Shown here: positions 584-14,372 of the stretch, one piece after another
How positions within the stretch are numbered: position 1 is the stretch's first letter
Layout of the letters: the number at the start of each line of letters is the position of its first letter
Assembly (NCBI RefSeq): GCF_018881835.1
Contig: NZ_JACVPO010000002.1
Span: 744,001-808,000, forward strand
Origin: Polynucleobacter hallstattensis
GTDB taxonomy: Bacteria; Pseudomonadota; Gammaproteobacteria; Burkholderiales; Burkholderiaceae
Length of the DNA: 64,000 nt
Reading direction: 5' to 3'
Made by a program: the position numbers and the translations under genes
The notes under the pieces: model-generated
Databases searched by the model: none
The model's input: only the letters and a program-made list of their open reading frames with translations
Told to the model about the DNA's origin: nothing

Positions 584-2491
584 CTACTCATAAAAAACCT
601 GTGCTCGCATATCTTTTATAAAAATCTGATAAAAGTCTTTCCACTTCTGAAGCTCTTCAGGCTGACATACGGCACCAGGTCGCTGGACTTTCAAGACTCT
701 TGTTACAGAGACAACGTTTTTAGATTCTTCATAGGTTGATTCATACTCTATGCCGCCTTTCTTATAACTCGTATTTGGCGGGATTCGCGTTACCTTGGCA
801 TTGCTTGGGAAGCCAATCTTGTAGCTTTCCCCTATCCACTTAGTGGCACATGTATATGGCACAGTGAATTTCTCTGGAGGCCTGTCATTTGCAATGAGCG
901 CTAGCTCACCGGGTGCGAGGCCTACAGGTATGGCTATAGCTCCTGGGCCAGGCACATTGGCAATAGCATCTAATGTGAACTCAGTATTTGTCGTAAACGG
1001 CTCATTTAAGTCATATACGTAACTGGTCGTGATCTTTCCTTCACCAGTCTGCCTAAATTTAGCCAGATCACTTCTGACGAGCTTTTCTGAAAGCGTAGTT
1101 TCCGCGCCCTCATATCTATAACGTGCATTAATTTCAGCACTGCCAAAGTACATGGTGTGCGTTTTTCCTTTAATCCGGCCATCCTTCTCTATTTGCATAG
1201 TGATACCGGTAAGGATTTTGCTATCTTCTTTTTTTGGCTTCGGCGTATGCCCCACCTTAGCTAACTTAGTTAATAAGGTCGGCTTATCTATCTCGCTTGA
1301 TGGCAAGGTACCAAATGGCGCCATCTCTGCCGTAGAGTCCAAATAGAGGTCCCAAGCTGGAATATAGGTAATGACATGGTTAAAGGGCCCAATTACTGGA
1401 TATTTAGGAAGCGTATAGGCTACGCCTGAGTTAATTAAGGCGCTACTTGCATTAATACCTTTAGCTGCCAGCAAGGCTATGAGCAACGCGTTGTGATCCT
1501 TGCAGTCGCCATAACGATTCTTCAGAATGCTTGTGGCGTCATGGGGCACGATACCTCCATCCCCAAGGTAGATGGCTACATATCGGATATTTCGAGATAC
1601 CCAGTTATAAAGCGCTCGAGCCCGCTCCTTCTTTAGGTTCAGCGTCTTATCTGCAGCCACCTTCTTATCCACGTCTTTAGTAATTTCATCAGCCATCTTC
1701 TGAATATCAGGAGTTACCAATGACTTATCCGTAATGCGAGCCTCATAGGCTTTAGCAAAGTCTTCTTGGCTAGCAAAGGTTGAGATATAGATATGAGGGG
1801 AAAAATCACTGCTAGCTACCTGAAGCTGCTCTTTCTTTTTCATCTTCAGATTTTGATAGGTATAACTCACATGGCGCACACCGTCTATTACCTCATCCCT
1901 GGTTTGCTTAACGTCTTTGATATCGCTATAGAGCTTTAGATCTTCGGGATAATTTAAGTTGTACTCATAAGACAATACCTCTGCATTCGGAGAAAACGTC
2001 AGGCGCGTATAAAAGTATCCTGGCAATAGAGGCTTAAAGGTTGTGAGCTTGGTTTTGTAATAAGTCTTTGAACCAGGGGTTACCTTTGGAAAGATGATGA
2101 TCTTGTGCTTCTGGTCTGAGAACATTGCCGCCCCAGCGCTGTTGTCATCCTCCACAGTTCTAATAGCATTGGGTGCTACAGATATCTTCTCGCCCTTAGG
2201 GGTAATGGTGTAAGCCTCTAAGACCTCTAGCTTAGATAGCGTTGAGTTGTATGGCAGATCCGCCTGGGACTCTGCATCAACCACCAATTGGGATTTAACT
2301 AGCGTAGTTAGTTCGTCAATTTCAACTACAGTGCCATCAGCTTGAATAGTTTCAGTGATTACTGCTCGCTCTACTGCTGAGAGAGATTCCAACTCTCCTC
2401 TACCTGCACTAGTGATACCAACATTGGCTAGCAATAAAAATCCTAGAAGAACCGCTCCAAGACTACTGATGGATTGAAGTGCAAATTTCAT
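584..2491 (-). CDS. Exported DUF3857 / transglutaminase-like protein
   Basis: A 635-residue protein with an N-terminal signal sequence or anchor (residues 1-30), a DUF3857-type beta-rich domain (about 60-240) and a transglutaminase-like core (about 285-400). The papain-like triad is visible as Cys330 in YGDCKDH, His372 in FNHVI and Asp385 in YLDSTA. Proteins of this architecture are periplasmic or cell-surface and are presumed to act on peptide or amide bonds; their substrates are mostly unknown. The C-terminal region (about 420-635) is beta-rich, as usual in the family. It lies 7 bases downstream of a small exported protein gene, probably in the same operon. Confidence 0.85.
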   Translation of the reverse strand: MKFALQSISSLGAVLLGFLLLANVGITSAGRGELESLSAVERAVITETIQADGTVVEIDELTTLVKSQLVVDAESQADLPYNSTLSKLEVLEAYTITPKGEKISVAPNAIRTVEDDNSAGAAMFSDQKHKIIIFPKVTPGSKTYYKTKLTTFKPLLPGYFYTRLTFSPNAEVLSYEYNLNYPEDLKLYSDIKDVKQTRDEVIDGVRHVSYTYQNLKMKKKEQLQVASSDFSPHIYISTFASQEDFAKAYEARITDKSLVTPDIQKMADEITKDVDKKVAADKTLNLKKERARALYNWVSRNIRYVAIYLGDGGIVPHDATSILKNRYGDCKDHNALLIALLAAKGINASSALINSGVAYTLPKYPVIGPFNHVITYIPAWDLYLDSTAEMAPFGTLPSSEIDKPTLLTKLAKVGHTPKPKKEDSKILTGITMQIEKDGRIKGKTHTMYFGSAEINARYRYEGAETTLSEKLVRSDLAKFRQTGEGKITTSYVYDLNEPFTTNTEFTLDAIANVPGPGAIAIPVGLAPGELALIANDRPPEKFTVPYTCATKWIGESYKIGFPSNAKVTRIPPNTSYKKGGIEYESTYEESKNVVSVTRVLKVQRPGAVCQPEELQKWKDFYQIFIKDMRAQVFYE

Positions 2492-2498
2492 AGGATCT

Positions 2499-2786
2499 TT
2501 AACGTCTCACATACGACTGTATGTAAGCCTTTCGTTTGTTTACTTCGCCTGTAAAAATAATTCCTGCGCTGTCGTGAACCATGGCTAACGGCTCTTGTAA
2601 TAGAGTCTTATCTGGAAGATAAGGATTACCATTTCGATCCCTGAGCCTAAATTTAGGCAATCCTAGGATCCTAGAGGTATCCACATAGACAGCAACCGCT
2701 AATGGGGTAGAGAGGGGTACACCTGATTTTCCAGCTGGTGATACCTGGAGCGGCATGAGGGCAATGAATATAAGGGAGCTAATCAA
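2499..2786 (-). CDS. Small exported hypothetical protein, 95 aa
   Basis: Unknown protein. The first 15 residues are hydrophobic (ISSLIFIALMPLQV) and look like a signal peptide. The best start is a TTG at 2786, since a stop codon lies just upstream in frame. The mature part contains RLRDRNGNPYLPD and ends in a basic tail. It immediately precedes the transglutaminase-like gene, suggesting co-export of the two products. The start lies about 47 bases from the palindromic box at 2833-2849, which it shares with the divergent secreted-protein operon. Confidence 0.5.
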   Translation of the reverse strand: MISSLIFIALMPLQVSPAGKSGVPLSTPLAVAVYVDTSRILGLPKFRLRDRNGNPYLPDKTLLQEPLAMVHDSAGIIFTGEVNKRKAYIQSYVRR

Positions 2787-2832
2787 GGGGATCTTTTTTA
2801 GTTATTTAGTTTTTTTATTGTGTTGATCCACT

Positions 2833-2849
2833 AGCTCATTAGGTGAGCT
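2833..2849. promoter_or_regulatory. Palindromic box AGCTCA-N5-TGAGCT, copy 1
   Basis: A perfect 6-bp inverted repeat (AGCTCA, spacer TTAGG, TGAGCT) preceded by CACT. It lies in the divergent intergenic region between the minus-strand gene starting at 2786 and the plus-strand gene starting at 2906. Matching boxes occur at 5494-5510, 9063-9079 and 11336-11352, each upstream of an island gene. It is inferred to be an operator, most plausibly for the WYL regulator at 5565-6533. Confidence 0.55.
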
Positions 2850-2905
2850 CCATGGTTTTTATTCTGAAATTGTTGTGTTTTCAGATAACTTTTTGGGAGT
2901 CACCC

Positions 2906-3220
2906 ATGAAATACCTCATCACCCTATTTTTAATTGCTCAAGCAGTTCTATTGGTGCGGGGCGTATCTGCCCAAGCCATTTATGGCCCAACCGGTAACTA
3001 TGTTGGATATAGCCAAACATCCCCCAGTGGCGTGACTAATGTCTATAACGCTACCGGCCAGAATGTTCAGTCATTTCAGACTGATAACGGGCAGACTAAT
3101 TTTTATAACCCTCAAGGCGCGTATCAAGGAGCCTCTACAACTCCTGTATTTGCAAGTCCTAATACAACGATCAATACTCCACGCCAAGCACCTCAGGCGC
3201 CTTCAGTGAAAGGTTGGTAA
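2906..3220 (+). CDS. Small secreted repeat-type protein, 104 aa
   Basis: Start chosen at ATG 2906, preceded by TTGGGAG about 6 bases upstream, rather than an upstream start. A clear signal peptide (MKYLITLFLIAQAVLL ... SAQA, cleavage near residue 23) leads a Gly/Asn/Tyr/Gln-rich mature chain. The segment SPSGVTNVYNATGQ is nearly repeated in the protein at 3426-3731 as SPTGVTNVFDNNGN, so the two are paralogues. No enzyme motif is seen. It is first in a plus-strand run of small exported proteins, with a palindromic box about 57 bases upstream of the start. Function unknown; it may be an adhesive or surface-associated secreted peptide. Confidence 0.6.
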   Translation: MKYLITLFLIAQAVLLVRGVSAQAIYGPTGNYVGYSQTSPSGVTNVYNATGQNVQSFQTDNGQTNFYNPQGAYQGASTTPVFASPNTTINTPRQAPQAPSVKGW

Positions 3221-3223
3221 GAA

Positions 3224-3415
3224 ATGAAACGATTACTTATTGCCGCCTTGTTGACGAGCTTCACGATCCCTAGTTTTGCAAGGACTGATGGTGGGGGCAA
3301 AAAGAGTTCTCAAAAATATAACAACCCAAGTGGTCATGAAAATTGCTATTACTGCTGGAAGGACTTAAGTACCACCTATACGCCCTCCCGTCATAAATAC
3401 GCTAAAAAATCTTAA
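3224..3415 (+). CDS. Small exported hypothetical protein, 63 aa
   Basis: Signal peptide at residues 1-19 (MKRLLIAALLTSFTIPSFA), then a short basic mature peptide of about 44 residues with two close cysteines in ENCYYCWKD and a Lys-rich end. The start is 3 bases after the upstream stop, so translation is probably coupled. The CxxC-like YYC pair may form a disulphide or bind metal after export. Function unknown. Confidence 0.5.
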   Translation: MKRLLIAALLTSFTIPSFARTDGGGKKSSQKYNNPSGHENCYYCWKDLSTTYTPSRHKYAKKS

Positions 3416-3425
3416 GGAGACCCAA

Positions 3426-3731
3426 ATGAAACGATTACTTTTTATTGGCACCCTTCTTATCTCTAGCCTCAGCTATGCTCAAGTAACAAGCTGGGAAAAC
3501 TCCCCCTTCAATTACAACAATAGTCAGTACAACTACAACAACAGTTCGTATAACTACAATAACTCCCCATATAACTACAACAACAGTCAGTACAACTACA
3601 ACGCCAATAATGGGGTGTATGACAACAGCGGCAATCGTATTGGCTATGAGACCCAATCACCAACTGGCGTGACTAATGTCTTTGATAACAACGGAAATCG
3701 GATTGGGTACTCCCCTAGCAAAAGACAATGA
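3426..3731 (+). CDS. Small secreted Asn/Tyr-repeat protein, 101 aa
   Basis: A signal peptide (residues 1-18, ending SLSYA) is followed by five copies of a seven-residue unit, NS-x-Y/F-NYN (residues 25-59). Then comes a tail with two GNRIGY motifs around SPTGVTNVFDNNGN. The tail is related to the protein at 2906-3220. An SD-like AAGGAG precedes the start. Low-complexity Asn/Tyr repeats suggest an extracellular, aggregating or adhesive peptide, but this is inference. The stop overlaps the next gene's start in an ATGA. Confidence 0.55.
   Translation: MKRLLFIGTLLISSLSYAQVTSWENSPFNYNNSQYNYNNSSYNYNNSPYNYNNSQYNYNANNGVYDNSGNRIGYETQSPTGVTNVFDNNGNRIGYSPSKRQ
3498..3602 (+). repeat. Five 21-bp tandem repeats within CDS
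   Basis: Five in-frame 21-bp units encode NS-x-Y/F-NYN. Copies differ mainly at the third residue and at synonymous positions. The array could expand or contract by slippage without a frameshift. Confidence 0.8.
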
Positions 3732-4285
3732 TCGCCGAAATGATCATCGATACCGAGGAGTTTCTGGCGGTATTGAAAAGATTAAAGCCTAGAAAAACGA
3801 CAAAGGCCTCCTTAGCTGAAGAGCTTTATATTGCGCTCTTTAATGGTGAGGCCATCTTCTGCGTAAGAGGAGTCCAAACTAAATGCTTGGTTGAGAAATC
3901 AATCAACTGGAGGGGCTATATTGAAGTTAATTCTGGGGTTGTGCTGTCATTCTTAGCTGCAAGACCTGCCGGGTCGAATATCAAGCTGAGCGTTCGTGGC
4001 GATGTATTTCAGATAGAGAACATTAAGGTGCCCTGTAAGACCATGCAATCCCCAGAGTGGATTACTGCAATGAGCTTTGAGGCTCACCTACATGACGATC
4101 CTAAAGCTAAACCTCACACCATCAATTTGTATTGCCCAAAATGCGGCAAGAAGCGCGGGGAATTCTTTAAACAAAAGATTGTGAAGCAAAGGGAACTGGG
4201 TGATCCACCTCCCCCAAAGTATCCAAGCTCAAGAAAATGTGCAGCTTGTAGACACGAATGGCTAGAATTTAACGACCCATTATGA
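3728..4285 (+). CDS. Zinc-ribbon hypothetical protein, 185 aa
   Basis: The C-terminal third carries two Cys pairs, CPKCGKK and CAACRHEW (about 35 residues apart), typical of a zinc ribbon. The N-terminal 120 residues are alpha/beta without a signature I recognise. The alternation of a helix (EEFLAVLKRLKP) with strands loosely recalls one domain of a DNA sliding clamp, but this is weak. Translation is coupled at both ends: ATGA overlap with the secreted-protein gene upstream and a 4-bp overlap with the HAD gene downstream. An internal ATG at 3740 is an alternative start. Cytoplasmic; nucleic-acid binding is plausible. Confidence 0.6.
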   Translation: MIAEMIIDTEEFLAVLKRLKPRKTTKASLAEELYIALFNGEAIFCVRGVQTKCLVEKSINWRGYIEVNSGVVLSFLAARPAGSNIKLSVRGDVFQIENIKVPCKTMQSPEWITAMSFEAHLHDDPKAKPHTINLYCPKCGKKRGEFFKQKIVKQRELGDPPPPKYPSSRKCAACRHEWLEFNDPL

Positions 4286-4698
4286 ATAAATTACTCTTCT
4301 TGGATTTTGATGGAGCACTCCACCCAACCCACTTCGCTGGTGAAGACCCTTTCAATAGAGTTCATCTGCTTGAGGAAACTCTTGAAGGATCAAATATCGG
4401 AATTGTGATTTCTTCGAGTTGGCGCTTTACACATAGCCTTGAAAAACTACAGAAACTATTACCAAACTCAATCTCCAGTATGGTTATTGGCGTTACTGGA
4501 TCACCAGTCATTGGCAAACATCCGCGCTATCTGGAAATTCGGGCCTTCTTACAATCTCATGGACATAGTAACTGGAGAGCTTTAGATGACTCCTACTGGG
4601 AGTTTCCAACTCCATGCCCAGAACTCATTCGCTGCAACCCCAATACCGGGATCTCAGATAAGCAGATCCAGGAATTAAGCAAATGGATGCTTATCTGA
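4282..4698 (+). CDS. HAD-like phosphatase domain protein
   Basis: The 138-residue protein opens with the HAD motif I LDFDG (Asp8, Asp10), followed by VISSSWR (motif II Ser/Thr region) and a later acidic LDDSYW. This pattern matches the short HAD family often annotated as HAD domain in Swiss Army Knife RNA repair proteins. Such domains are predicted phosphatases acting on nucleic-acid ends or nucleotides. It has no membrane-embedding or signal sequence. Its start overlaps the stop of the zinc-ribbon gene by 4 bases, so the two are probably translated together and may act together. Confidence 0.75.
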   Translation: MNKLLFLDFDGALHPTHFAGEDPFNRVHLLEETLEGSNIGIVISSSWRFTHSLEKLQKLLPNSISSMVIGVTGSPVIGKHPRYLEIRAFLQSHGHSNWRALDDSYWEFPTPCPELIRCNPNTGISDKQIQELSKWMLI

Positions 4699-4711
4699 CA
4701 GTTGCTTATTT

Positions 4712-5131
4712 TTAGTAAGTATTCCACCCGCCAGCTCCATTAGGCAAAGTTTGTATGAGTTTTCCATTAGGTGTGTAGGTGTTGTAACCGCCCGCACCAC
4801 TAGGCAATGTTTGAGTCACCCCACCATTTGGCCCATACGTGTTGTAACCACCCGCACCATTTGGCAAAGTTTGTGTGAGCTGCCCATTAGGTGAATACGT
4901 GTTGTACCCGCCAGCGCCATTGGGTAACGTCTGAGTCAACTGTCCATTTGGTCCATAGGTGTTGTACCCACCAGCGCCGTTGGGTAAGGTCTGAGTTAGC
5001 GCTCCATTGCGACCATAGGTGTTATAGCCACCCGCACCGTTGGGCAATGTCTGAATAGGTTGGGCCGCTACAAACTCAATGCAAGATAAAGTAACTGCAA
5101 AAACGATCGTCTTTATGTTTGAAATGCTCAT
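4712..5131 (-). CDS. Secreted tandem 20-residue repeat protein, 139 aa
   Basis: A signal peptide (residues 1-23, ending FVAA) leads a mature chain made almost wholly of a 20-residue unit, QTLPNGAGGYNTYGPNGQLT in consensus. There are five full copies and a partial sixth that ends the protein in WNTY. Such Gly/Asn/Tyr repeats suggest a beta-solenoid or an extended surface fibre. It is the last gene of a three-gene minus-strand unit in which each start overlaps the preceding stop. I know no family name for it with confidence. Confidence 0.65.
   Translation of the reverse strand: MSISNIKTIVFAVTLSCIEFVAAQPIQTLPNGAGGYNTYGRNGALTQTLPNGAGGYNTYGPNGQLTQTLPNGAGGYNTYSPNGQLTQTLPNGAGGYNTYGPNGGVTQTLPSGAGGYNTYTPNGKLIQTLPNGAGGWNTY
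4715..5053 (-). repeat. 60-bp tandem repeats, 5.65 copies, within CDS
   Basis: Period 60 bp, in frame, encoding the 20-residue secreted repeat. Copies differ by scattered substitutions, many synonymous, so the array is under coding constraint and is not a recent duplication. It is not a CRISPR: there are no unique spacers. Confidence 0.85.
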
Positions 5132-5265
5132 AGAGCCTCCGGATTTATTAAAGAAAGATCCACTTCATGAAATTGAGCCTGCAATTCTTCCGACTCTGAA
5201 AACTCATCCAATAGATACCCTATGGAGGGAGTAATTCTTCGCACGGCGTAATTGAGCATGCTCAT
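5128..5265 (-). CDS. Small hypothetical protein, 45 aa
   Basis: This short frame runs from ATG 5265 to TGA 5128. It begins MSMLNYAVRRITPSIG and continues into an acidic helix-prone segment (DEFSESEELQAQ). GGAG lies 6 bases before the ATG. The ATG overlaps the stop of the upstream membrane-protein gene (TAATG) and its TGA overlaps the ATG of the repeat-protein gene (ATGA). This coupling on both sides is the main evidence that it is real. Function unknown. Confidence 0.6.
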   Translation of the reverse strand: MSMLNYAVRRITPSIGYLLDEFSESEELQAQFHEVDLSLINPEAL

Positions 5266-5450
5266 TAACGTCTCCGATACTTAGCTCGCACTTTTTCACG
5301 CTGCACAAATGACACATGCGCAATTAATGCCTCGCTGAAAAACATAAATAAGCCGATAAAGAAGGCTTGAACTAGCCCCAAATCCAGCCCGCCCTGCTCT
5401 AGGCAATAAGCACTGATAAACATTAAGAATAGACCTAATAACTTAACCAT
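5265..5450 (-). CDS. Small membrane protein, 61 aa
   Basis: Two hydrophobic stretches (about residues 3-17 and 26-45) separated by a short polar loop, with a strongly basic C-terminus (REKVRAKYRRR) that should stay in the cytoplasm. A GGGGTG ribosome-binding site precedes the ATG. It heads the three-gene unit ending in the secreted repeat protein and is divergent from the WYL regulator gene. The palindromic box at 5494-5510 lies in between. Function unknown; a role in export or retention of the repeat protein is possible but unproven. Confidence 0.55.
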   Translation of the reverse strand: MVKLLGLFLMFISAYCLEQGGLDLGLVQAFFIGLFMFFSEALIAHVSFVQREKVRAKYRRR

Positions 5451-5493
5451 TTTTCACCCCTTTTGTTGATATAGGTCAGATTAATGACCCACT

Positions 5494-5510
5494 AGCTCAC
5501 GAAATGAGCT
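5494..5510. promoter_or_regulatory. Palindromic box AGCTCA-N5-TGAGCT, copy 2
   Basis: A perfect 6-bp inverted repeat with spacer CGAAA, preceded by CACT as in copy 1. It sits between the divergent genes starting at 5450 (minus) and 5565 (plus, WYL regulator). Its position 54 bases upstream of the regulator's own start fits autoregulation. Confidence 0.6.
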
Positions 5511-5564
5511 ATAAAGTGATTAAAGTTATAAAAACAACAAAAGATATAACCATTAGGGGCTCTT

Positions 5565-6533
5565 ATGAGTGATATGGAACGGCTGCACCGCATTAAGTAC
5601 ATGATTCAGCAGCGTAAATGCGTACCTAGGGAAGATTTCTTGTCTGAGCTAGAGGTATCACCAGCAACCTTTAAGCGCGATCTTGAGTACCTACGTAGCC
5701 GCCTAAAGGCTTCTATCGTTTATGACCGCTTTATGGGTGGATATAAGTTTGAGAACCCAGACCAAGTAGACAAGATCGAAATGCCAGGGCTTTGGTTCTC
5801 TGAAAAAGAGGCTACTGCTTTAGTACTCATGCAGCACTTACTCTCTTCGCTTGATCAGGGTGGACTTATTGGCCCACATATTGAACCCTTAACTGCAATC
5901 ATCGATGGCATCTTAGGTCAGAGCGAGACATCTGCCAAGGAACTTCGCAAGCGAATCAAAGTGCTTGGAATGGGTGCGCGAAAAAATTCAATCGATAACT
6001 TCTCTGAAATTGGTGCAGCTCTACTCAAACGAAATCGCCTGGAGATTTCTTATTACGCTAAAGGGAAGGATGAACTCACAGAGAGGGAGATATCCCCCCA
6101 ACGCCTTATCTTTTATCGCGAGAACTGGTACCTGGATGGATATTGTCACTTACGCGATGGTTTGCGAAGTTTTGCAGTGGATGGGATTCGCAAGGCAACC
6201 TTAAGCAATAAGAGGGCACAAGAGATATCGGAGAAGGAGTGTCAAGAACACTTCTCAGAAAGCTATGGCATCTTCTCTGGTAAAGCCACCCAAAGGGCCA
6301 AGTTGCGCTTTACTCCTGAACATGCTCGTTGGGTTTCTGGCGAGAATTGGCACGGTCAACAGGTTGGCAGTTTTGATAAGGATGGTTATTACACACTTGA
6401 GTTTGACTACAACCAAGATCCTGAGTTGGTAATGGATATCCTAAAACATGGATCCGGGGTTGAGGTTCTAGGACCAGCAAGTCTTAAGAAGCGAATTAAA
6501 GATGAACTCACTAAATCCCTGGAAAGATATTAA
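5565..6533 (+). CDS. HTH-WYL domain transcriptional regulator
   Basis: A 322-residue protein with an N-terminal DeoR/HTH_11-like winged helix (about residues 5-65: RLHRIKYMIQQRK ... SPATFKRDLEYLRSRL), a central WYL domain (about 150-225, with ISPQRLIFYRENWYLDGYC) and a C-terminal WCX extension (about 235-320). Length and domain order match the YafY/PafBC and BrxR/CapW-type regulators, which commonly sit in defence or accessory islands and repress from palindromic operators near their own promoter. The WYL pocket is thought to sense a nucleotide or nucleic-acid ligand. A palindromic box lies upstream, and three more lie upstream of other island genes. Confidence 0.85.
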   Translation: MSDMERLHRIKYMIQQRKCVPREDFLSELEVSPATFKRDLEYLRSRLKASIVYDRFMGGYKFENPDQVDKIEMPGLWFSEKEATALVLMQHLLSSLDQGGLIGPHIEPLTAIIDGILGQSETSAKELRKRIKVLGMGARKNSIDNFSEIGAALLKRNRLEISYYAKGKDELTEREISPQRLIFYRENWYLDGYCHLRDGLRSFAVDGIRKATLSNKRAQEISEKECQEHFSESYGIFSGKATQRAKLRFTPEHARWVSGENWHGQQVGSFDKDGYYTLEFDYNQDPELVMDILKHGSGVEVLGPASLKKRIKDELTKSLERY

Positions 6534-6535
6534 TC

Positions 6536-7042
6536 ATGGAAGACCTCCTAAGAGAACCATCCCCACTACTGACAAGAGAATCTCCAAGACAAATAATCCT
6601 TGAAGACTTCAAAATGGATTTGCCTATTACGGGTGGCTGGGGTTACGACTTTGATACAGCTTGCGTAATAGATAAAAAAGATTCTTCGGTGAATCCAAAT
6701 ATGCCCTTCGATGGTCTAGGTATTGAGTATGTCTTTGTGGAAAAACGAATTTATGAAGAAATGATTATCTTTCGCCAATCCCACGAGAAGTTTTCTGGAA
6801 TACGCTGGGACCTTGAAAAGCAAGAGCTTATATCTCGAGATGAAAAGCACTACGACAAGCTAATCTTTAACGTCCTCGGGTTCTCCGATGCTATATGGGA
6901 TGAACTCACCAGTCGTTTTGAAGTAATCCAAAAGAGCGGTGAGCTTGAAAAAATGGTTGAATTAGATGCCTATAGAGAATCTAAGGCATATCGATTTAAA
7001 AGAGAGTTTTACTTCGATATCACAAGCTTCTACGGAACATAA
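6536..7042 (+). CDS. Hypothetical protein co-transcribed with WYL regulator
   Basis: Unknown soluble protein of 168 residues, acidic and rich in aromatic residues (ITGGWGYDFDTACVI, FYFDITSFYGT). It starts 2 bases after the WYL regulator's stop, so it is almost surely in the same transcript. No catalytic motif is evident. It could be a ligand-processing or partner protein of the regulator, but nothing in its sequence proves that. Confidence 0.6.
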   Translation: MEDLLREPSPLLTRESPRQIILEDFKMDLPITGGWGYDFDTACVIDKKDSSVNPNMPFDGLGIEYVFVEKRIYEEMIIFRQSHEKFSGIRWDLEKQELISRDEKHYDKLIFNVLGFSDAIWDELTSRFEVIQKSGELEKMVELDAYRESKAYRFKREFYFDITSFYGT

Positions 7043-7058
7043 ATAGAATTGGTATGGC

Positions 7059-7532
7059 CTACTTTCCAAGACTCCAGTCGTGAGCTAAATCAATAAAGAT
7101 GGCGGCCTCTGGGGAGAGGAACTCAGATGATGGAAAAATCCCCACGCGACCTAAATCTAATCGATCTGCATCCCAGCAAGTTTGAATGGTTGCATCCAGA
7201 GAGACATCTCCGCCAGAATGGTGCTTCAACGCGTAGCAAAGTCTATCTAATTGCTTTGGCTCTAGATCATAGAAGTCCCCGTGAATACCATGTGCAAACT
7301 CGGCAGCTCGCTGCCCATGTAAGGGATCACGCCCATCATTTAACCTGCAGCTGTCATGCAAAAAACCAAAAAGCTCAATCACCATCAAGTCAGCCTTGCG
7401 GAGTTGGCCAATATTTTTTCCATGATGCAAGACTCGCGCCCAGTGGTTGGCACCATGAATCCCTTGCCAATCGAGCTTAAATTCAGATCTGATGAGGGCA
7501 ATCATGCCAGAGCAATCGTATTCAGCTTTCAT
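7059..7532 (-). CDS. HD-domain metal-dependent phosphohydrolase
   Basis: The 157-residue protein has the ordered HD-superfamily metal ligands: His in GANHWARV, the HD pair in FGFLHDSCR, a downstream His in DPLHGQRAA, and a late Asp in CWDADRLDLGRVG. These predict a Mn/Fe/Mg-dependent phosphohydrolase acting on nucleotides or phosphate esters. It overlaps the stop of nothing downstream, but its ATG overlaps the end of the DUF3293 gene at 7532, so it is the last gene of a minus-strand operon (8567 to 7059). The substrate is unknown. Confidence 0.8.
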   Translation of the reverse strand: MKAEYDCSGMIALIRSEFKLDWQGIHGANHWARVLHHGKNIGQLRKADLMVIELFGFLHDSCRLNDGRDPLHGQRAAEFAHGIHGDFYDLEPKQLDRLCYALKHHSGGDVSLDATIQTCWDADRLDLGRVGIFPSSEFLSPEAAIFIDLAHDWSLGK

Positions 7533-7987
7533 TAATTAAGTCCTCTAACGGGGTAGCGCAAATTGAGGCTCACTAAGCCATCATCGCATTCAATCCATAG
7601 ATAGGCATTTTGTCCATATCGCCCCGCTAAGAGTTCTGCACTTTGATGTGAGATTCCCAGCACAAGAACGCTTGGCTCACTAGGCCAAATATTTAATGGG
7701 TCCCCGCCCTCTCCTGCAATAAACTCCAGCCCAAGAGATTTAATATCTTCAACTAAGGCATTGTGTTTATGTACATTGACTTCTGCAGTCGCAAGAATGC
7801 TGTGAGGATTAAAAGCAGTTAAGAATGCAGCACTCTTAGCCCCATATCTCTTCATCGATGAGATCAACTCTAGGCTGGGTTGACCAACCCTAAGATGGAT
7901 ATCTCCATCTTCTCCGTGAATAACATAGAACGCATCGCTATATGCCTTTGCTAAATCAGCAGGAATATCCTGGATTGGATTACTCAT
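7532..7987 (-). CDS. DUF3293 domain-containing protein
   Basis: The 151-residue protein matches the DUF3293 pattern: LRVGQPS near residue 33, then AAFLTAFNPHS, a GEGGDPLNIWPSEPSVLVLGI segment in the middle, and QNAYLWIECDD near the end. The family is small, cytoplasmic and of unknown function; it is widespread in Proteobacteria. It overlaps both neighbours by 1 to 4 bases, indicating translational coupling with the HD phosphohydrolase downstream and the 98-residue protein upstream. Confidence 0.8.
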   Translation of the reverse strand: MSNPIQDIPADLAKAYSDAFYVIHGEDGDIHLRVGQPSLELISSMKRYGAKSAAFLTAFNPHSILATAEVNVHKHNALVEDIKSLGLEFIAGEGGDPLNIWPSEPSVLVLGISHQSAELLAGRYGQNAYLWIECDDGLVSLNLRYPVRGLN

Positions 7988-8280
7988 ATCGTGAGCTCAT
8001 CTAGTTTTTCTTGGCTTTCTGCCATCGGAGATTCATCCCCTAGGTTTATAAGTGGCCTCAATTTATACCTATCGGTGATGGCCTCCGTGGAATAACCTTT
8101 AACCAGCTTTGTTCCACGCCACATTTGGTTAAATTTACGACTTGTCACTGTTTTAATCTCATACGCATCTTCGCGGCCGTCATACATTCCTAAATGACAG
8201 ACTACCTCAACTATTAACCCAAGGTTTTCGGGGCAGCCACCAACGATGACACATAAGGTTCCAGGTTTTAAGTGTGACAT
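7984..8280 (-). CDS. Hypothetical protein with KOW-like beta start, 98 aa
   Basis: The N-terminus (LKPGTLCVIVGGCPENLGLIVEV) resembles the beta-barrel opening of KOW or SH3-like domains, which bind RNA or protein. The remainder is polar. It sits inside the minus-strand operon with 4-bp overlap to DUF3293 and 2 bases from the upstream gene. Function unknown. Confidence 0.5.
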   Translation of the reverse strand: MSHLKPGTLCVIVGGCPENLGLIVEVVCHLGMYDGREDAYEIKTVTSRKFNQMWRGTKLVKGYSTEAITDRYKLRPLINLGDESPMAESQEKLDELTI

Positions 8281-8282
8281 CG

Positions 8283-8567
8283 TTATCTCCTAGCTAGTTC
8301 TGTAGGTGTTGTAGCATCTAACGCCTTGTTAATACGATGATGCAGCTTTAAGGCCGTTGAGAAGTAATACAACTTTGGGTTTAACTTGATGTTGGCGTAT
8401 TCCCAATCCTTAATTTCTAGGCTTACCCCTTTTGCCCAGTAGTAATACTTGCCACCGTCTTCAATTGCTATGCCGGTATATCGATACTCCGATAACCCTT
8501 GCTCGGCCGGATCAAACTTCTTGAACTCATCTGAATGCAGTTCAACACTAATTAATTGGAAATTCAT
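8283..8567 (-). CDS. Hypothetical protein, 94 aa
   Basis: First gene of the compact minus-strand operon leading to the HD phosphohydrolase. It is soluble, with a Tyr-rich centre (GGKYYYWAKGV), and has a GGAGAAG-type ribosome-binding site just before the ATG. No family was recognised. Confidence 0.5.
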   Translation of the reverse strand: MNFQLISVELHSDEFKKFDPAEQGLSEYRYTGIAIEDGGKYYYWAKGVSLEIKDWEYANIKLNPKLYYFSTALKLHHRINKALDATTPTELARR

Positions 8568-8647
8568 TTTCTTCTCCTATTTAGCCAATTGGACAAATGT
8601 CGGGGCTTGGCAATTCGGTTTAACTCCGCCCTCACTACTTTATGAAT

Positions 8648-9010
8648 CTAGTGGATCACTGCCTCCGCTACTTCAGGCTTTCCCTCTGGGTCTTTTTTTT
8701 GGCTAGTAACCAAGAATTCCTTAGTCTCTAGGGCAACTTTCAGATATTCATCAGTAGCAGCTCTAAAGTTATCTACGCCATCTTCTTTGCTAAAGATGTA
8801 GGTAAGGCTATAAATCAAGTTATCCGCATCTTCACCATCAACTGTGACGGTATTTCCTTCATCGCTATCAACAACCCTAAGGCCTCTTGAAAATACAGGC
8901 TTTTCACTATCAACCCAACTCATATCGAGACGGTCAATATCAAACCGAAGGCTGCGAAACAAATTATTTACAGTAAAACGGGCGCCGCCTAAATATGTGT
9001 AGTCACGCAT
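8648..9010 (-). CDS. Hypothetical protein, 120 aa
   Basis: The start was chosen at ATG 9010 because GGAGG lies 4 to 5 bases upstream; a longer frame begins at 9046. The product begins MRDYTYLGGARFTVNN and has no signal peptide or membrane segment. A palindromic island box (9063-9079) lies about 55 bases upstream, in promoter position. Function unknown. Confidence 0.5.
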   Translation of the reverse strand: MRDYTYLGGARFTVNNLFRSLRFDIDRLDMSWVDSEKPVFSRGLRVVDSDEGNTVTVDGEDADNLIYSLTYIFSKEDGVDNFRAATDEYLKVALETKEFLVTSQKKDPEGKPEVAEAVIH

Positions 9011-9062
9011 AAGACCTCCAAATAAATTAATTAGCTTTACAAACAAATTATCAAGACTGGGA

Positions 9063-9079
9063 GGCTCAAATATTGAGCT
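9063..9079. promoter_or_regulatory. Palindromic box, copy 3
   Basis: GGCTCA-AATAT-TGAGCT. Read on the minus strand it becomes CTAGCTCA-ATATT-TGAGCC, matching copies 1 and 2 including the CTAG-side flank. It lies upstream of the minus-strand gene starting at 9010. Confidence 0.5.
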
Positions 9080-9103
9080 AGATCTTCTTTGCCCAATAAA
9101 AAA

Positions 9104-9131
9104 CCCACCAAATTTGATGGGTTTGTCGCTT
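9104..9131 (-). terminator. Rho-independent terminator after nuclease gene
   Basis: On the minus strand an inverted repeat ACCCA(T)CAAATTTG(G)TGGGT is followed by TTTTTTATT. It lies downstream of the stop at 9249 and should end the transcript of the HD-hydrolase/nuclease operon. The roughly 115 bases between the stop and this hairpin hold no gene that I can see. Confidence 0.75.
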
Positions 9132-9248
9132 TTGATTACCCTTTCAGGGTCTCATCTTTTTAGCACCTTACTAGCGTTAGCAGGTTGCTGTGGCGACAAA
9201 GCCATCTCTTGATGTAGATTTGATTATGCTAACTTTAGTTAAATCTTG

Positions 9249-10706
9249 TCAAGATGATTTCTGACCCCATGCTTGCACAATCTTGACCATTGCAATCGTA
9301 TCTTGCTTGCAGTACTTAAGCATGGCATGCCGCACATTCTCTTTTCGCTCTGGAGTAGTTTGGCTATGTATAGCTTCTTTATAAGCTTCTTGTGCCATTG
9401 CCCCATCACTAACCTCTAGGTTTGCATAATCCAATTCAGGTGCAATTGTGGGCAGGACGTCTTTGATTGACCAAGACCCCTTCATATCAGGGTGGTAGTA
9501 ATGATTACGCGCTAGTGGCAGTAAATCAAAGAAGCGATCAGGAATTGCTAATAGCCCTGAAGAAAGATGTGGGAAGGCTGTGGCTAACTCTTTAATACGC
9601 GCCCCTTCAAAACCAGCGTTGTAAACAATTACTGGTCCCTGTGTAGAAACGGCCTCAATCAATGTTCTGGCGAACATTTCCCTGGGGTCGTTTCCCGAAA
9701 GATCTAAAAACTCTTTATGCGTGATCGATCCGTCGGTCTGCTCAATATGACATGACCACTGAAATGGCAGTTGCATATAAGGACGCGTGCCCGCCCAGAC
9801 CGGAACAGCAAAACCAATAGTTTCAAAATCGAGGTAATAACGTGGATATGGCAAAGCCTGTATTTGCTTAATAGCCTCGGACTCTAGTATGGCCTGACCA
9901 CTGAGAGTGGCCGCATGCACTTTGAGGTGCTTGGGATTACTCAAACGTTCGGAGGGCACATCACGCAAATCTTTGTAGCCATCGCTCCTTAATTCGGAAG
10001 CAATCGATTTGCCGTAGGGCAAGATTTCGACTGGATACTCCACGCCCTCTTCAGGCGGAGAGCAATAGGCAATAAAGTCACAGGTAAATGGATCTGTACA
10101 TTGTTCACCAGGAGCAATCGCAGGCTCAATTGTTAATGCTAAGGTTTTTTCGGCGGCTTCAACCCAAGATTGCACTTGAGAGATATTCGGCTTTACCTGG
10201 TTTGATAAATCAGCCTCAGCAAATAAACCTTCGTAATTTCCATCGCCCTGATAGACAAATTTATTATTGATATAAGCTAAGGCCATGCTAGTTGGTGAAC
10301 AACCCGCCTTCTCCATAACCCAACTTTGAACTGTTACATCATCAACATGGTAGCTTTTCACGCCAGTAGAAGATTTGACTTCCACTAGACGATATCCATC
10401 TTTTTCTGGGAAGAGTAAATCTGCGCGAATCATGACGTTCTCTTCAAAGAAGGCACCCTCGAAGATTGTTTGGTGTTTCGATACAGCCTCTTTAGTTTGG
10501 GCGATAGCCTCTACCCGATTAAGAGTCTCTATAAAAACTCCGCCTAGATAATTCTGGCGAGCAATATCTCCGACTTTGTTGCCCTCATCAAATCTAACCT
10601 GGGTTGCTGCGCTAATTTGGATGAGCTCAGGCCGATTTATTTGCAGCCATAGGCGTTTAGGGCACTGGCGGTGGGCAATGATCTTTGACTTGCTCAGACT
10701 TGCCAT
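9249..10706 (-). CDS. Cas4-like Fe-S nuclease fused to DEDDy exonuclease (DUF2779)
   Basis: A 485-residue two-enzyme protein. Residues 1-220 look like a RecB/Cas4-type PD-(D/E)XK nuclease: Asp96 in MIRADLLF, EVK at 109-111, and a probable 4Fe-4S site from Cys15 (HRQCPKRLW) plus Cys203, Cys209 and Cys215. Residues 285-485 are a DUF2779/DnaQ-like 3'-5' exonuclease: Asp293-x-Glu295 (exo I), Asn363/Glu367 in VYNAGFEGAR (exo II), and Tyr465-x3-Asp469 (exo III, DEDDy). The pairing suggests processing of DNA (or RNA) ends. Its start is 5 bases after the MESH1-like hydrolase gene, in one operon. Confidence 0.85.
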   Translation of the reverse strand: MASLSKSKIIAHRQCPKRLWLQINRPELIQISAATQVRFDEGNKVGDIARQNYLGGVFIETLNRVEAIAQTKEAVSKHQTIFEGAFFEENVMIRADLLFPEKDGYRLVEVKSSTGVKSYHVDDVTVQSWVMEKAGCSPTSMALAYINNKFVYQGDGNYEGLFAEADLSNQVKPNISQVQSWVEAAEKTLALTIEPAIAPGEQCTDPFTCDFIAYCSPPEEGVEYPVEILPYGKSIASELRSDGYKDLRDVPSERLSNPKHLKVHAATLSGQAILESEAIKQIQALPYPRYYLDFETIGFAVPVWAGTRPYMQLPFQWSCHIEQTDGSITHKEFLDLSGNDPREMFARTLIEAVSTQGPVIVYNAGFEGARIKELATAFPHLSSGLLAIPDRFFDLLPLARNHYYHPDMKGSWSIKDVLPTIAPELDYANLEVSDGAMAQEAYKEAIHSQTTPERKENVRHAMLKYCKQDTIAMVKIVQAWGQKSS

Positions 10707-10711
10707 GAGAG

Positions 10712-11260
10712 TTACTTACCTATCTCAGATTGATACTCGGCCCTACCTTTTTCAAGTAAAGCATCAAATACTTTCTCTAACTTGGAGTTTGACCCTCTAA
10801 TTCCAGCAACCACAGCAGCCGCCCATTCAAAGTATTCCTGCTTTCTTTTGGTATCCCAACCACTTGGGGGTGAAGCCAAGATATCCCGAAGATTGCAAAT
10901 CTTATCGGCAAGTTTGACTAACTTAGCCTCATGAGATGAATGAGGGGCGTGTGCAATTTGCTGCAGCTTGCGCTCTGCCTTAGGTAGCGTCTTGTCGTCT
11001 GTCACCTCCAAAACGATTGAGGCTACGTTCTTTCCGAATGCTTTAGTTAACTCTTCAGCCGTAGTTTGGGTATCTTCAATCGTGTCATGCAATAAGGCAG
11101 CGCATAGGACATCCCAATTTTGAACACCGCCCTCGTTTACAAGAACTTCAACTAATGCGATTGGGTGATTGATGTATGGAGATGCTTCAACGTCCTTGCG
11201 GCGCTGGTCTCGATGCTTAGTTGCAGAAAATGCAAGGGCAGTGACAAATTGATTAATCAT
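10712..11260 (-). CDS. MESH1/SpoT-like HD hydrolase (small alarmone hydrolase)
   Basis: A 182-residue stand-alone HD domain with the RelA/SpoT-hydrolase layout: HRDQRRKD near the start, YINHPIALVEVL, the HD pair with ED in ALLHDTIEDTQTT, and LVKLADKICNLRD. There is no synthetase, TGS or ACT domain. The family removes the 3' pyrophosphate of (p)ppGpp or acts on related nucleotides (NADPH in animals). In an island and next to a dual nuclease, its substrate may differ. GGAAG precedes the ATG. A 15-bp palindrome (11285-11299) and an island box (11336-11352) lie upstream. Confidence 0.85.
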   Translation of the reverse strand: MINQFVTALAFSATKHRDQRRKDVEASPYINHPIALVEVLVNEGGVQNWDVLCAALLHDTIEDTQTTAEELTKAFGKNVASIVLEVTDDKTLPKAERKLQQIAHAPHSSHEAKLVKLADKICNLRDILASPPSGWDTKRKQEYFEWAAAVVAGIRGSNSKLEKVFDALLEKGRAEYQSEIGK

Positions 11261-11284
11261 GATTCTTCCATTCTATAAGGTTTG

Positions 11285-11299
11285 TCTAGTGCCACTAGA
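11285..11299. promoter_or_regulatory. 15-bp perfect palindrome upstream of HD hydrolase
   Basis: TCTAGTG-C-CACTAGA, 25 bases before the start of the hydrolase/nuclease operon. It is symmetric and not followed by a T-run on the minus strand, so a protein-binding operator is more likely than a terminator. Confidence 0.4.
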
Positions 11300-11335
11300 C
11301 TCCATTACAGCCTGAACACACGATAAGGCAAGTAA

Positions 11336-11352
11336 AGCTCATCAGGTGAGCC
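11336..11352. promoter_or_regulatory. Palindromic box, copy 4
   Basis: AGCTCA-TCAGG-TGAGCC, one mismatch from a perfect inverted repeat, 76 bases upstream of the HD-hydrolase/nuclease operon and just after the stop of the 78-residue gene. The spacer ends in AGG as in copy 1. Confidence 0.5.
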
Positions 11353-13165: not shown

Positions 13166-13195
13166 TTGACTCTTTATTAAAGAATCCTTTAATAT
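13166..13195 (+). promoter_or_regulatory. Probable fic promoter
   Basis: A TTGACT -35 at 13166-13171 and TAATAT (or TTAATA) at 13189-13195 give 17 to 18 bp spacing. The -10 and spacer are covered by operator copy 2, so repressor binding there would block RNA polymerase. Confidence 0.55.
13176..13193. promoter_or_regulatory. Fic operator copy 2
   Basis: ATTAAAG-AATC-CTTTAAT, with perfect 7-bp arms. It starts 31 bp after copy 1 and overlaps the promoter spacer and -10 region. Confidence 0.65.
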
Positions 13196-13205
13196 ACATA
13201 TTTAC

Positions 13206-13223
13206 ATTAAAGAGCTCTTTAAT
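13206..13223. promoter_or_regulatory. Fic operator copy 3, abutting the start codon
   Basis: ATTAAAG-AGCT-CTTTAAT, a perfect 18-bp palindrome starting 30 bp after copy 2. The ATG of the Fic gene begins at the next base, 13224. In RNA it could also fold over the ribosome-binding region (AAAGAG). Confidence 0.7.
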
Positions 13224-14372
13224 ATGAACCGAGTTAGCGGTACTTACGTTGTTACAACTACCCTTAGCGAATCCGTTAAGGCATTTGTTCCTGCGTTACT
13301 ACCACCCAAAGATCCTGCGCTCTCACCTGCCTGTTATGTAGAGCAAAACCAAGCTGCTGAGCTCGCATTAGCGCGCCTATCTGGTGTGACAGGTTTAGTG
13401 CCATCGATTGATTGGTTGCTTTATGGCGCCATCCGTAAAGAGGCTTTGCTGACCTCCCAGATTGAAGGCACTCAAGCCACCCTCGCCGACCTGTTTGATG
13501 ATGAGGCTGGCTTAGATATTAAGAATGCTGATGACATTGAAGAAGTCACCAACTACATGCAAGCATTTCGGTTTGTTAGAGAAAACTTGCGCGATGAGCC
13601 TGGTCTGCCTATTAGCGTTCGTCTTTTATGTAGTGCCCATCAATTACTGCTCAATGGCGTAAGAGGTACAGGCAAGCAACCGGGTGAGCTTCGTAAATCC
13701 CAAAACTGGATTGGTGGCACAAGGCCGGGTAATGCAGTTTTTGTTCCACCGCCGGCAGATGAGGTGCCTAAGCTTCTCACCAATCTCGAGCAATTTATTC
13801 ACAAGGAAGATGATGGTCTACCGCGTCTGGTAAATATCGCCCTTGCTCATGCCCAGTTTGAAACCATTCACCCATTCTTAGATGGTAATGGTCGTATTGG
13901 GCGACTTCTGATTGCGGCATTGATGGAATATTTTGGCTTGCTACCAGAGCCTCTGATGTATTTAAGCTCTTACTTAAAAGAGCATCAAATGGAGTATTAC
14001 CGCTTACTTGGCGCTATCAGAACTGAGGGTGATTGGGAGTCGTGGGTCAGCTTCTTTTTAGAAGGTGTTACCGAGGCAGCTACATCAGCTGAAAGAGGAA
14101 TTATTGAAGTGGCATCTAGAGTATCAGCTGATAGGCGTCTGTTGCTTGCATCTCAAAATGCAAGTCCTGCGAGTTTGCGCCTCTTTGAATTGTTACCAAT
14201 GATGCCGCGCTTTACGATTGATCGCATCAAGGCAGAGCTAAAGACAACCTTTCCAACTGCGAATGCTGCGGCCAGGACTTTAGAAGGACTTGGAATCGTT
14301 ACCGAGGTAACTGGTCAATCTCGCAACCGCAGCTTTAGCTATCAACCTTACATTGATTTGATTTCAAAGTAA
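13224..14372 (+). CDS. Fic-family protein adenylyltransferase with C-terminal winged helix
   Basis: A 382-residue Fic protein. The catalytic loop HPFLDGNGRIGR at 216-227 is intact, with His216 and the phosphate-binding GNGR. A class II inhibitory motif, Thr77-xxx-Glu81-Gly82 (TSQIEG), lies N-terminal, so the enzyme should be self-inhibited until Glu81 is displaced. A Fic_N-type domain precedes the core, and a winged-helix domain (about 315-380, with PTANAAARTLEGLGIVTEV) ends the protein. This is the layout of SoFic-like AMP-transferases that modify partner proteins using ATP. The winged helix plus three upstream operators suggests direct autorepression. Confidence 0.9.
   Translation: MNRVSGTYVVTTTLSESVKAFVPALLPPKDPALSPACYVEQNQAAELALARLSGVTGLVPSIDWLLYGAIRKEALLTSQIEGTQATLADLFDDEAGLDIKNADDIEEVTNYMQAFRFVRENLRDEPGLPISVRLLCSAHQLLLNGVRGTGKQPGELRKSQNWIGGTRPGNAVFVPPPADEVPKLLTNLEQFIHKEDDGLPRLVNIALAHAQFETIHPFLDGNGRIGRLLIAALMEYFGLLPEPLMYLSSYLKEHQMEYYRLLGAIRTEGDWESWVSFFLEGVTEAATSAERGIIEVASRVSADRRLLLASQNASPASLRLFELLPMMPRFTIDRIKAELKTTFPTANAAARTLEGLGIVTEVTGQSRNRSFSYQPYIDLISK

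Follow-up and report, generated by a model that had tools for sequence, protein, structure and literature searches.

A palindromic box of 17 base pairs (bp), RGCTCA-N5-TGAGCY, heads the operons of a genomic island of Polynucleobacter hallstattensis and is, judging from comparison across genomes, probably the operator through which the WYL-domain regulator of the island activates its own gene and the surrounding accessory operons. The stretch analyzed here, called the window, is 64,000 nucleotides long (bases 744001-808000 of contig C2 in a genome of 2.10 Mb). The box accompanies the WYL gene in distant taxa, and a -10 element follows it at one constant distance.

The box and its genomic distribution

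Four boxes are found in the window:
2833..2849, no strand: box 1, AGCTCATTAGGTGAGCT, exact AGCTCA-N5-TGAGCT, between two divergent operons; the same box occurs in genome G004
5494..5510, no strand: box 2, AGCTCACGAAATGAGCT, exact, in a bidirectional promoter between the WYL gene and the gene of a 61-amino-acid (aa) membrane protein, with a -10 element on both sides
9063..9079, no strand: box 3, GGCTCAAATATTGAGCT, beginning GGCTCA, one outer mismatch to AGCTCA-N5-TGAGCT
11336..11352, no strand: box 4, AGCTCATCAGGTGAGCC, ending TGAGCC, one outer mismatch to AGCTCA-N5-TGAGCT

The initial annotation had reported four copies of AGCTCA-N5-TGAGCT in promoter positions. All four positions are correct and all four boxes lie between genes, but the sequence is exact only at 2833 and 5494, those at 9063 and 11336 having a single outer mismatch. 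The relaxed form RGCTCA-N5-TGAGCY covers the four boxes and 186 distinct sites of related loci (141 + 45). The mechanical list of open reading frames (ORFs) has one start within box 1 (GTG 2843) and another near box 3 (TTG 9046); for both, a later ATG (2906 and 9010, respectively) fits the homologues.

The exact 12-base palindrome has two copies in the genome, both in the island. Its 10-base core, GCTCA-N5-TGAGC, occurs 12 times, four of them within a stretch of 8.5 kb, and the reversed control pattern does not occur at all. By their flanks, two of the eight other core sites fit the R...Y form, one beside a presumed umuC gene and one on contig C1. Within the window alone the enrichment is modest: eight sites with at most two mismatches, for a mean of 3.4 and a maximum of 7 in 100 shuffles. 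Many copies at unrelated chromosomal promoters, named beforehand as the observation that would speak against a regulon, were not seen; a single complete promoter (defined as box-N10-TAnnnT) lies outside the island, and it is itself kept in genomes devoid of the WYL gene.

The strong evidence for the motif comes from comparison across genomes. The comparison set holds 151 Polynucleobacter genomes, 60 of which have a match to the WYL protein, fragments counted; 49 of these 60 provided 1,131,509 bases of island DNA. In this DNA a spacer of 5 gives 139 copies of GCTCA..TGAGC, whereas none of the other spacers between 0 and 12 exceeds 12 copies; there is a slight bias to spacer 5, as stretches L085, L087, L089 and L094 are among the few that were picked for an already-seen box. 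Among 60 arm-permuted palindromes, the actual one included, the next best has 13 sites and the median is 1. An ORF head (frame of at least 45 aa) is found no more than 150 bp away for 123 of the 133 boxes, and 62 boxes have such a head on both sides.

The box travels with the WYL gene

The HTH-WYL regulator that had been annotated beside the second copy is indeed encoded there, with box 2 directly upstream:
5565..6533, plus strand: WYL regulator (winged helix-turn-helix (wHTH), WYL, WCX), proposed reader of the box; Pfam WYL 1e-20, WCX 1e-15; AlphaFold2 (AF2) model nearest to DriD and PafBC

It is the sole WYL protein found in the source genome. Among its 56 homologues of at least 250 aa (window included, shorter pieces dropped), 42 have an exact box 40-81 bp upstream, and all 42 fall among the 51 with at least 55% identity. 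Of the nine close homologues that miss it, three carry a box with a single mismatch about as far upstream, and in one the box precedes the operon's first gene. Three of the five homologues of 39-44% identity, none of which carries the exact box, have the one-base variant GGCTCACCCCATGAGAC at a like place.

The best 80 of 408 named WYL loci were also considered, 26 of them duplicating genome loci already counted (in a further comparison such duplicates were dropped and 114 of 140 loci kept). An exact box is present within 300 bp upstream of the WYL gene in 43 of these 80. Among the 36 least identical loci (47-54%), 12 have it, such as loci of Sulfuricella, Thiotrichaceae and Burkholderiales. 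A homologue of 44% identity on a Variovorax plasmid, the one record examined out of four, also has the box, which is found in one of 11 viral loci (48% identity over 111 residues, at a contig end). The genes behind the boxes differ between the distant groups, some being weakly SprT-like or weakly YfbR-like, both below the Pfam cut-off. Because the neighbouring genes vary in this way, the WYL gene stands out as the constant partner of the box, and the pairing appears to be old. An island-wide regulon read by the WYL protein, as previously proposed, gains support from the box upstream of 42 of 51 close homologues and from a nearly invariant recognition helix, and RGCTCA-N5-TGAGCY is the probable operator of the neighbouring regulator.

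Several other arrangements were observed at these loci. In G040, G076 and the distant loci L199, L202, L212 and L213 a second box directly follows the WYL stop codon, placing boxes on both sides of the gene. Two WYL paralogues (~75% and ~40% identity to the query) lie close together in G040:C1, G076:C1 and G146:C5, the second having a variant operator. P. bastaniensis also has two WYL copies. In L189, L191 and L201 a weakly SprT-like gene is preceded by paired boxes, separated by 44-45 bp. At G053:C1:911999-912352, a WYL C-terminal match was reported for a 13455-aa open frame, and a giant gene may contain or adjoin it. Phage records contain two weak WYL relatives of 27-33% identity.

Promoter anatomy

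The -10 elements of the window are the following:
2817..2822, minus strand: weaker -10 CACAAT of the leftward promoter of box 1, keeping the A and T of AnnnT but not the first T
2860..2865, plus strand: -10 TATTCT of the rightward promoter of box 1, box-N10-TAnnnT
5478..5483, minus strand: -10 TAATCT facing the 61-aa membrane protein (box 2), box-N10-TAnnnT
5521..5526, plus strand: -10 TAAAGT facing the WYL gene (box 2), box-N10-TAnnnT
9047..9052, minus strand: -10 GATAAT facing the 120-aa gene (box 3), keeping the A and T of AnnnT but not the first T
11320..11325, minus strand: -10 TATCGT facing the MESH1-like gene (box 4), box-N10-TAnnnT

When 159 promoters are aligned on the box, one strongly conserved element appears outside it, with A at +28 (94%) and T at +32 (85%), and a weaker mirror image on the opposite side. 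This -10 element, TAnnnT, starts 10 bp past the box, and a single box often serves two divergent promoters. Duplicate flanks entered the count a single time, and sides whose only gene lies at another distance were set apart as ambiguous (60 of Polynucleobacter type, 28 distant). Strict TAnnnT at +27 is found on 37/70 one-sided and 51/94 two-sided gene-facing sides as compared to 5/58 gene-less sides. For AnnnT at +28 the counts are 131/164 and 9/58 (Fisher P 3e-18, computed as if related genomes and the paired sides of each box were independent, which they are not); in the distant loci they are 17/29 and 7/33. In the window, A and T are kept on all six gene-facing sides and absent on both remaining sides. 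The source genome has five complete promoters: that of box 1 rightward, both of box 2, that of box 4 and one near 353.4 kb. The constant box-to--10 spacing is a new finding of this analysis.

The position of the -35 hexamer coincides with the box centre. Across 128 promoters selected for box-N10-TAnnnT, the best match to a TTGACA-like -35 at a spacing of 16-18 has a mean of 2.18 out of 6, versus 2.56 in control windows. An ordinary promoter with its own -35 was thus rejected as an explanation, no TTGACA-like element being found at any constant place. A site lying over a non-consensus -35 at a fixed distance from the -10 is a trait of DriD/PafBC-type WYL activators that the box promoters share.

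The same anatomy bears on whether the palindromes might be RNA hairpins, as terminators or leader structures, instead of protein sites. They could form a 6-bp stem with a 5-nt loop, and one conserved copy lies downstream of umuC. Boxes 1 and 2, however, each separate a pair of divergent genes, a repeat that looks more like a terminator (by eye) comes before box 3, none of the four window boxes is directly followed by a T-run, and the -10 occurs at a single offset. The terminator or hairpin reading was discarded on position and on the missing T-runs directly after the window boxes, and we regard it as extremely improbable.

The WYL protein

By its predicted domains the protein belongs to the WYL-domain transcription factors, with a wHTH at residues ~1-62 followed by WYL (146-217) and WCX (243-320). 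The recognition helix, S-x-A-T-[FLI]-[KR]-R-D, is present in 108/108 homologues and nearly invariant. PafBC is the best sequence match in the PDB (1.1e-19), and both DriD and PafBC come ahead of BrxR and CapW. The AF2 model (mean pLDDT 77.6, pTM 0.49) ranks the folds similarly: DriD, Z 17.3 (3.4 Å, 194 residues); PafBC, 15.2 (7.6 Å, 295); BrxR, 13.6 (14.7 Å, 215); CapW, 12.7 (13.3 Å, 242). BrxR/CapW was therefore set aside as the nearest fold, a ranking and not an exclusion.

PafBC and SiwR require an arginine pair of the WYL domain for single-stranded DNA (ssDNA) binding and activation (PMC11804915, PMC10693628): joint mutation of PafC R201/R204 and PafB R211/R214 abolishes ssDNA binding (PMC11804915), and SiwR needs R204 and R207 (PMC10693628). 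PafC R201/R204 align to A204/G207 of the island protein, and none of the 108 homologues has an arginine at 204 or 207, so that the signal is probably other than that of PafBC. As a CapW-ssDNA structure (9c5g) exists among the fold matches, ssDNA binding is not restricted to activators.

Activation or repression

In the proposed mechanism, a WYL dimer would set a winged helix on either half-site, straddling the -35 position in a sigma-70-type promoter whose -35 is poor, and would recruit RNA polymerase to the TAnnnT -10 that starts 10 bp past the box. The symmetry of the dyad allows a single box to serve promoters on both of its sides. The regulator would activate its own gene, creating positive feedback, as well as the island's accessory operons. 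Its signal is probably some small ligand, such as a nucleotide, accommodated in the WYL/WCX part rather than ssDNA held in the manner of PafBC; by analogy, promoter action may be DriD-like, and nothing shows an ssDNA sensor. What the sequences show directly is the motif, its positions, its conservation with the WYL family, the constant distance to the -10, and the lack of both a -35 and the arginine pair; we infer box binding, the sign of activation, the ligand and the purpose of the genes. Activation is favored over repression because the site layout resembles that of DriD and because DriD and PafBC come ahead in sequence and fold. As a whole, the model in which the WYL regulator activates its own gene and the island operons through the box is considered probable.

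The initial annotation had looked to BrxR/CapW, repressors of defence genes. In such a system the WYL dimer would cover the -35 and silence the operons until phage infection or stress released it. Repression by BrxR goes through inverted repeats spaced by 5 bp (PMC9122601), and the island has a repeat of this kind upstream of the WYL gene; the BrxR site of Acinetobacter overlaps the -35 (PMC9122589); both BrxR and CapW turn up in the sequence and fold comparisons; and SspF-, SspG- and SspH-like genes lie 2-10 kb left of the window (locus L076) beside a type II cytosine methyltransferase gene. Yet at the box promoters there is no -35 consensus to hide, the box occupies the -35 place and keeps a constant spacing of 10 bp to the -10 over many promoters, DriD and PafBC are the better matches, none of the 10 island proteins examined matches BREX or CBASS, and the Ssp-like stretch has no box. 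The repressor model thus did not hold up well and appears unlikely.

Several observations weigh against activation by the WYL protein through the box. Five of the nine close homologues that miss the exact box have none near the WYL gene, and among the 36 named loci of lowest identity, 24 lack one in the 300 bp upstream. Ten of the 133 boxes have no ORF head within 150 bp, six lie inside ORFs of at least 100 aa, and the spacing control has the slight bias described above. The ssDNA arginine pair, a trait of the DriD/PafBC type, is missing. The position of the box alone gives no sign, because the BrxR site overlaps the -35 and BrxR nevertheless represses. The 5-bp spacer, too, is shared with BrxR operators (PMC9122601). 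Finally, genomes devoid of the WYL gene keep perfect boxes.

Boxes in genomes without the WYL gene

The complete promoter near 353.4 kb precedes a conserved ORF (G000:C2:353209-353337) of 43 aa, 41-47 aa in relatives, which probably forms one membrane helix (by eye) and is matched in 93/151 genomes. The genes flanking this box are, we presume, umuC and a yqhA-like gene. Upstream regions were examined for 90 of 96 matches, six being left out and G016 counted twice. Exact box and TAnnnT are intact in 18/33 regions of WYL genomes, 21/54 of WYL-less genomes and 1/3 of genomes with only a distant relative; nearly all other regions lack the box altogether. The umuC-side box is not associated with WYL presence (18/33 versus 22/54 regions, Fisher P 0.27; the three regions of genomes with only the relative of 40% identity were set apart). 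Furthermore, WYL-less genomes G136 and G138 (L343, L344) retain regulon operons under intact boxes, encoding the 120-aa protein and, in G138, also the 94-aa and HD-like proteins.

These orphan operons, the 21 intact WYL-less promoters and the lack of association would suit a different conserved chromosomal regulator that owns the box, the WYL gene being one target among others. Against this stand the presence of the box at WYL genes of distant taxa despite different neighbours, and the number of complete promoters, 5.6 times lower without WYL: a mean of 0.50 per genome in 68 of the 91 WYL-less genomes, versus 2.80 in 46 genomes with a close WYL match, some of which hold just part of the gene (50 of the 60 WYL-match genomes were scanned; three with only a 40% relative and one with a fragment were left out). 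Moreover, neither the WYL domain (PF13280) nor the wHTH profile of the WYL protein has a match in 15 WYL-less genomes (0/15 each), and the reader would need to be common to all. A different owner of the box is thus distinctly improbable.

For the WYL-less boxes, either the regulator has often been lost and regained, or another protein reads the box. The second option is part of a broader reading, possible but doubtful, in which the WYL protein represents a separate class of activators, without ssDNA arginines and with another ligand, governing a plug-in regulon: a gene set landing behind box-N10-TAnnnT would join the network. Species without the regulator would then owe the persistence of at least one box promoter, the one before the small membrane protein, to a second regulator that recognizes this box as well.

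The island and its surroundings

Returning to the activator model, the operons that the WYL protein would control in the island are:
584..2786, minus strand: leftward box 1 operon, 95-aa exported protein and DUF3857/transglutaminase-like protein
584-2491, minus strand: DUF3857/transglutaminase-like protein, Pfam DUF3857 9.5e-27
2499-2786, minus strand: 95-aa exported protein, family box-headed in 14/16 members
2906..3220, plus strand: exported 104-aa protein, first gene of the rightward box 1 operon; family of 42, box-headed in 26 loci
to 4698, plus strand: rest of the rightward box 1 operon, two further exported proteins, a 185-aa protein and a HAD_SAK_2 protein (Pfam HAD_SAK_2 4.7e-24)
4712..5450, minus strand: leftward box 2 operon, 61-aa membrane protein (5265-5450; family box-headed in 12/13 members) and exported repeat protein (4712-5131; six 20-aa repeats)
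6536..7042, plus strand: 168-aa protein, second gene of the WYL operon, no family above cut-off
7059..9010, minus strand: box 3 operon, 120-aa protein (8648-9010; family box-headed in 14/18 members), 94-aa and 98-aa proteins, DUF3293 protein (7532-7987; Pfam DUF3293 7.3e-18) and 157-aa protein (7059-7532)
9249..11260, minus strand: box 4 operon, MESH1-like RelA/SpoT-type HD hydrolase (10712-11260) and DUF2779 protein (9249-10706)

The 157-aa protein shows a weak likeness to HD phosphohydrolases (NCBIfam PRK10119 0.00029, below cut-off). The MESH1-like hydrolase matches Pfam HD_4 (5.6e-18) and NCBIfam spoT_relA (4.4e-23, below its own cut-off), and the DUF2779 protein matches Pfam DUF2779 (1.5e-45) and, weakly and below cut-off, RNase_H_2 (0.00045). 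For 10 island proteins, PADLOC returned only WYL-type matches and a weak Cas4 match (6.7e-06, the DUF2779 protein), with no other defence assignment, and for 10 proteins PHROGs yielded nothing beyond a WYL relative and HD hydrolases. Near the boxes of other islands, DUF4407, redoxin, vWA/VIT and cytosine methyltransferase genes are found; the regulon gene set is a patchwork.

The island appears to be mobile. In the source genome it adjoins ilvD, whereas in G004 blocks of this island, 93-94% identical, are located near 1.53 Mb and ilvD is at 0.954 Mb; in G107, G031 and G059, a phosphatase-like gene (by eye) and no island is found at that side of ilvD. Farther left in L076 (20 kb left of the window), terminase- and portal-like genes are present, phage-derived by eye and likewise without boxes. 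To the right, at 13175-13225 of the window, ATTAAAG-like palindromic repeats directly precede a gene at 13224, Fic-like by eye, and are possibly an operator of their own.

Comparison with known systems

Among the literature matches listed, with subscription journals mostly outside the scope, there is no report of an RGCTCA-N5-TGAGCY operator or of a Polynucleobacter WYL regulator, and the available portions of PMC7522526 and PMC5644125 neither mention a WYL regulator nor concern the present one. The case would add a WYL family whose operator and promoter architecture are defined and whose regulon, consisting largely of unknown genes, can be read off; the genus is harmless and abundant in fresh water. 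The operator may serve as a search handle for regulon genes in Betaproteobacteria and Gammaproteobacteria, the bidirectional design is built from a single dyad, and the absent arginine pair predicts that the ligand is not ssDNA, a point relevant to the sensing role of WYL domains.

DriD, an activator of Caulobacter crescentus, is among the closest likenesses and has the highest fold match: it shares the wHTH-WYL-WCX order, its dyads overlap a poor -35 at a constant distance from the -10, and one bidirectional promoter lies next to its own gene (PMC12340889, a preprint). Identity to the island protein is 16-20% over the fold alignments, and DriD differs in its operator, ATACGAC-N7-GTCGTAT, in sensing ssDNA and, in the available portion of the source, in not regulating itself. 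PafBC, a mycobacterial DNA-damage activator, is the best sequence match but is a heterodimer or a fusion, has the ssDNA arginines and uses sigma adaptation to activate promoters that carry a -26 motif (PMC11804915). SiwR of Mycobacterium smegmatis is likewise a WYL activator, acting on an imperfect palindrome between -35 and -10 (PMC10693628); its site is 19 bp long and serves one adjacent operon. BrxR and CapW, like the island protein, are WYL regulators beside accessory or defence genes, the 5-bp-spacer repeats of BrxR being near its own gene (PMC9122601). They are, however, repressors (PMC12255303) tied to BREX or CBASS, and the half-sites of BrxR measure 10-11 bp.

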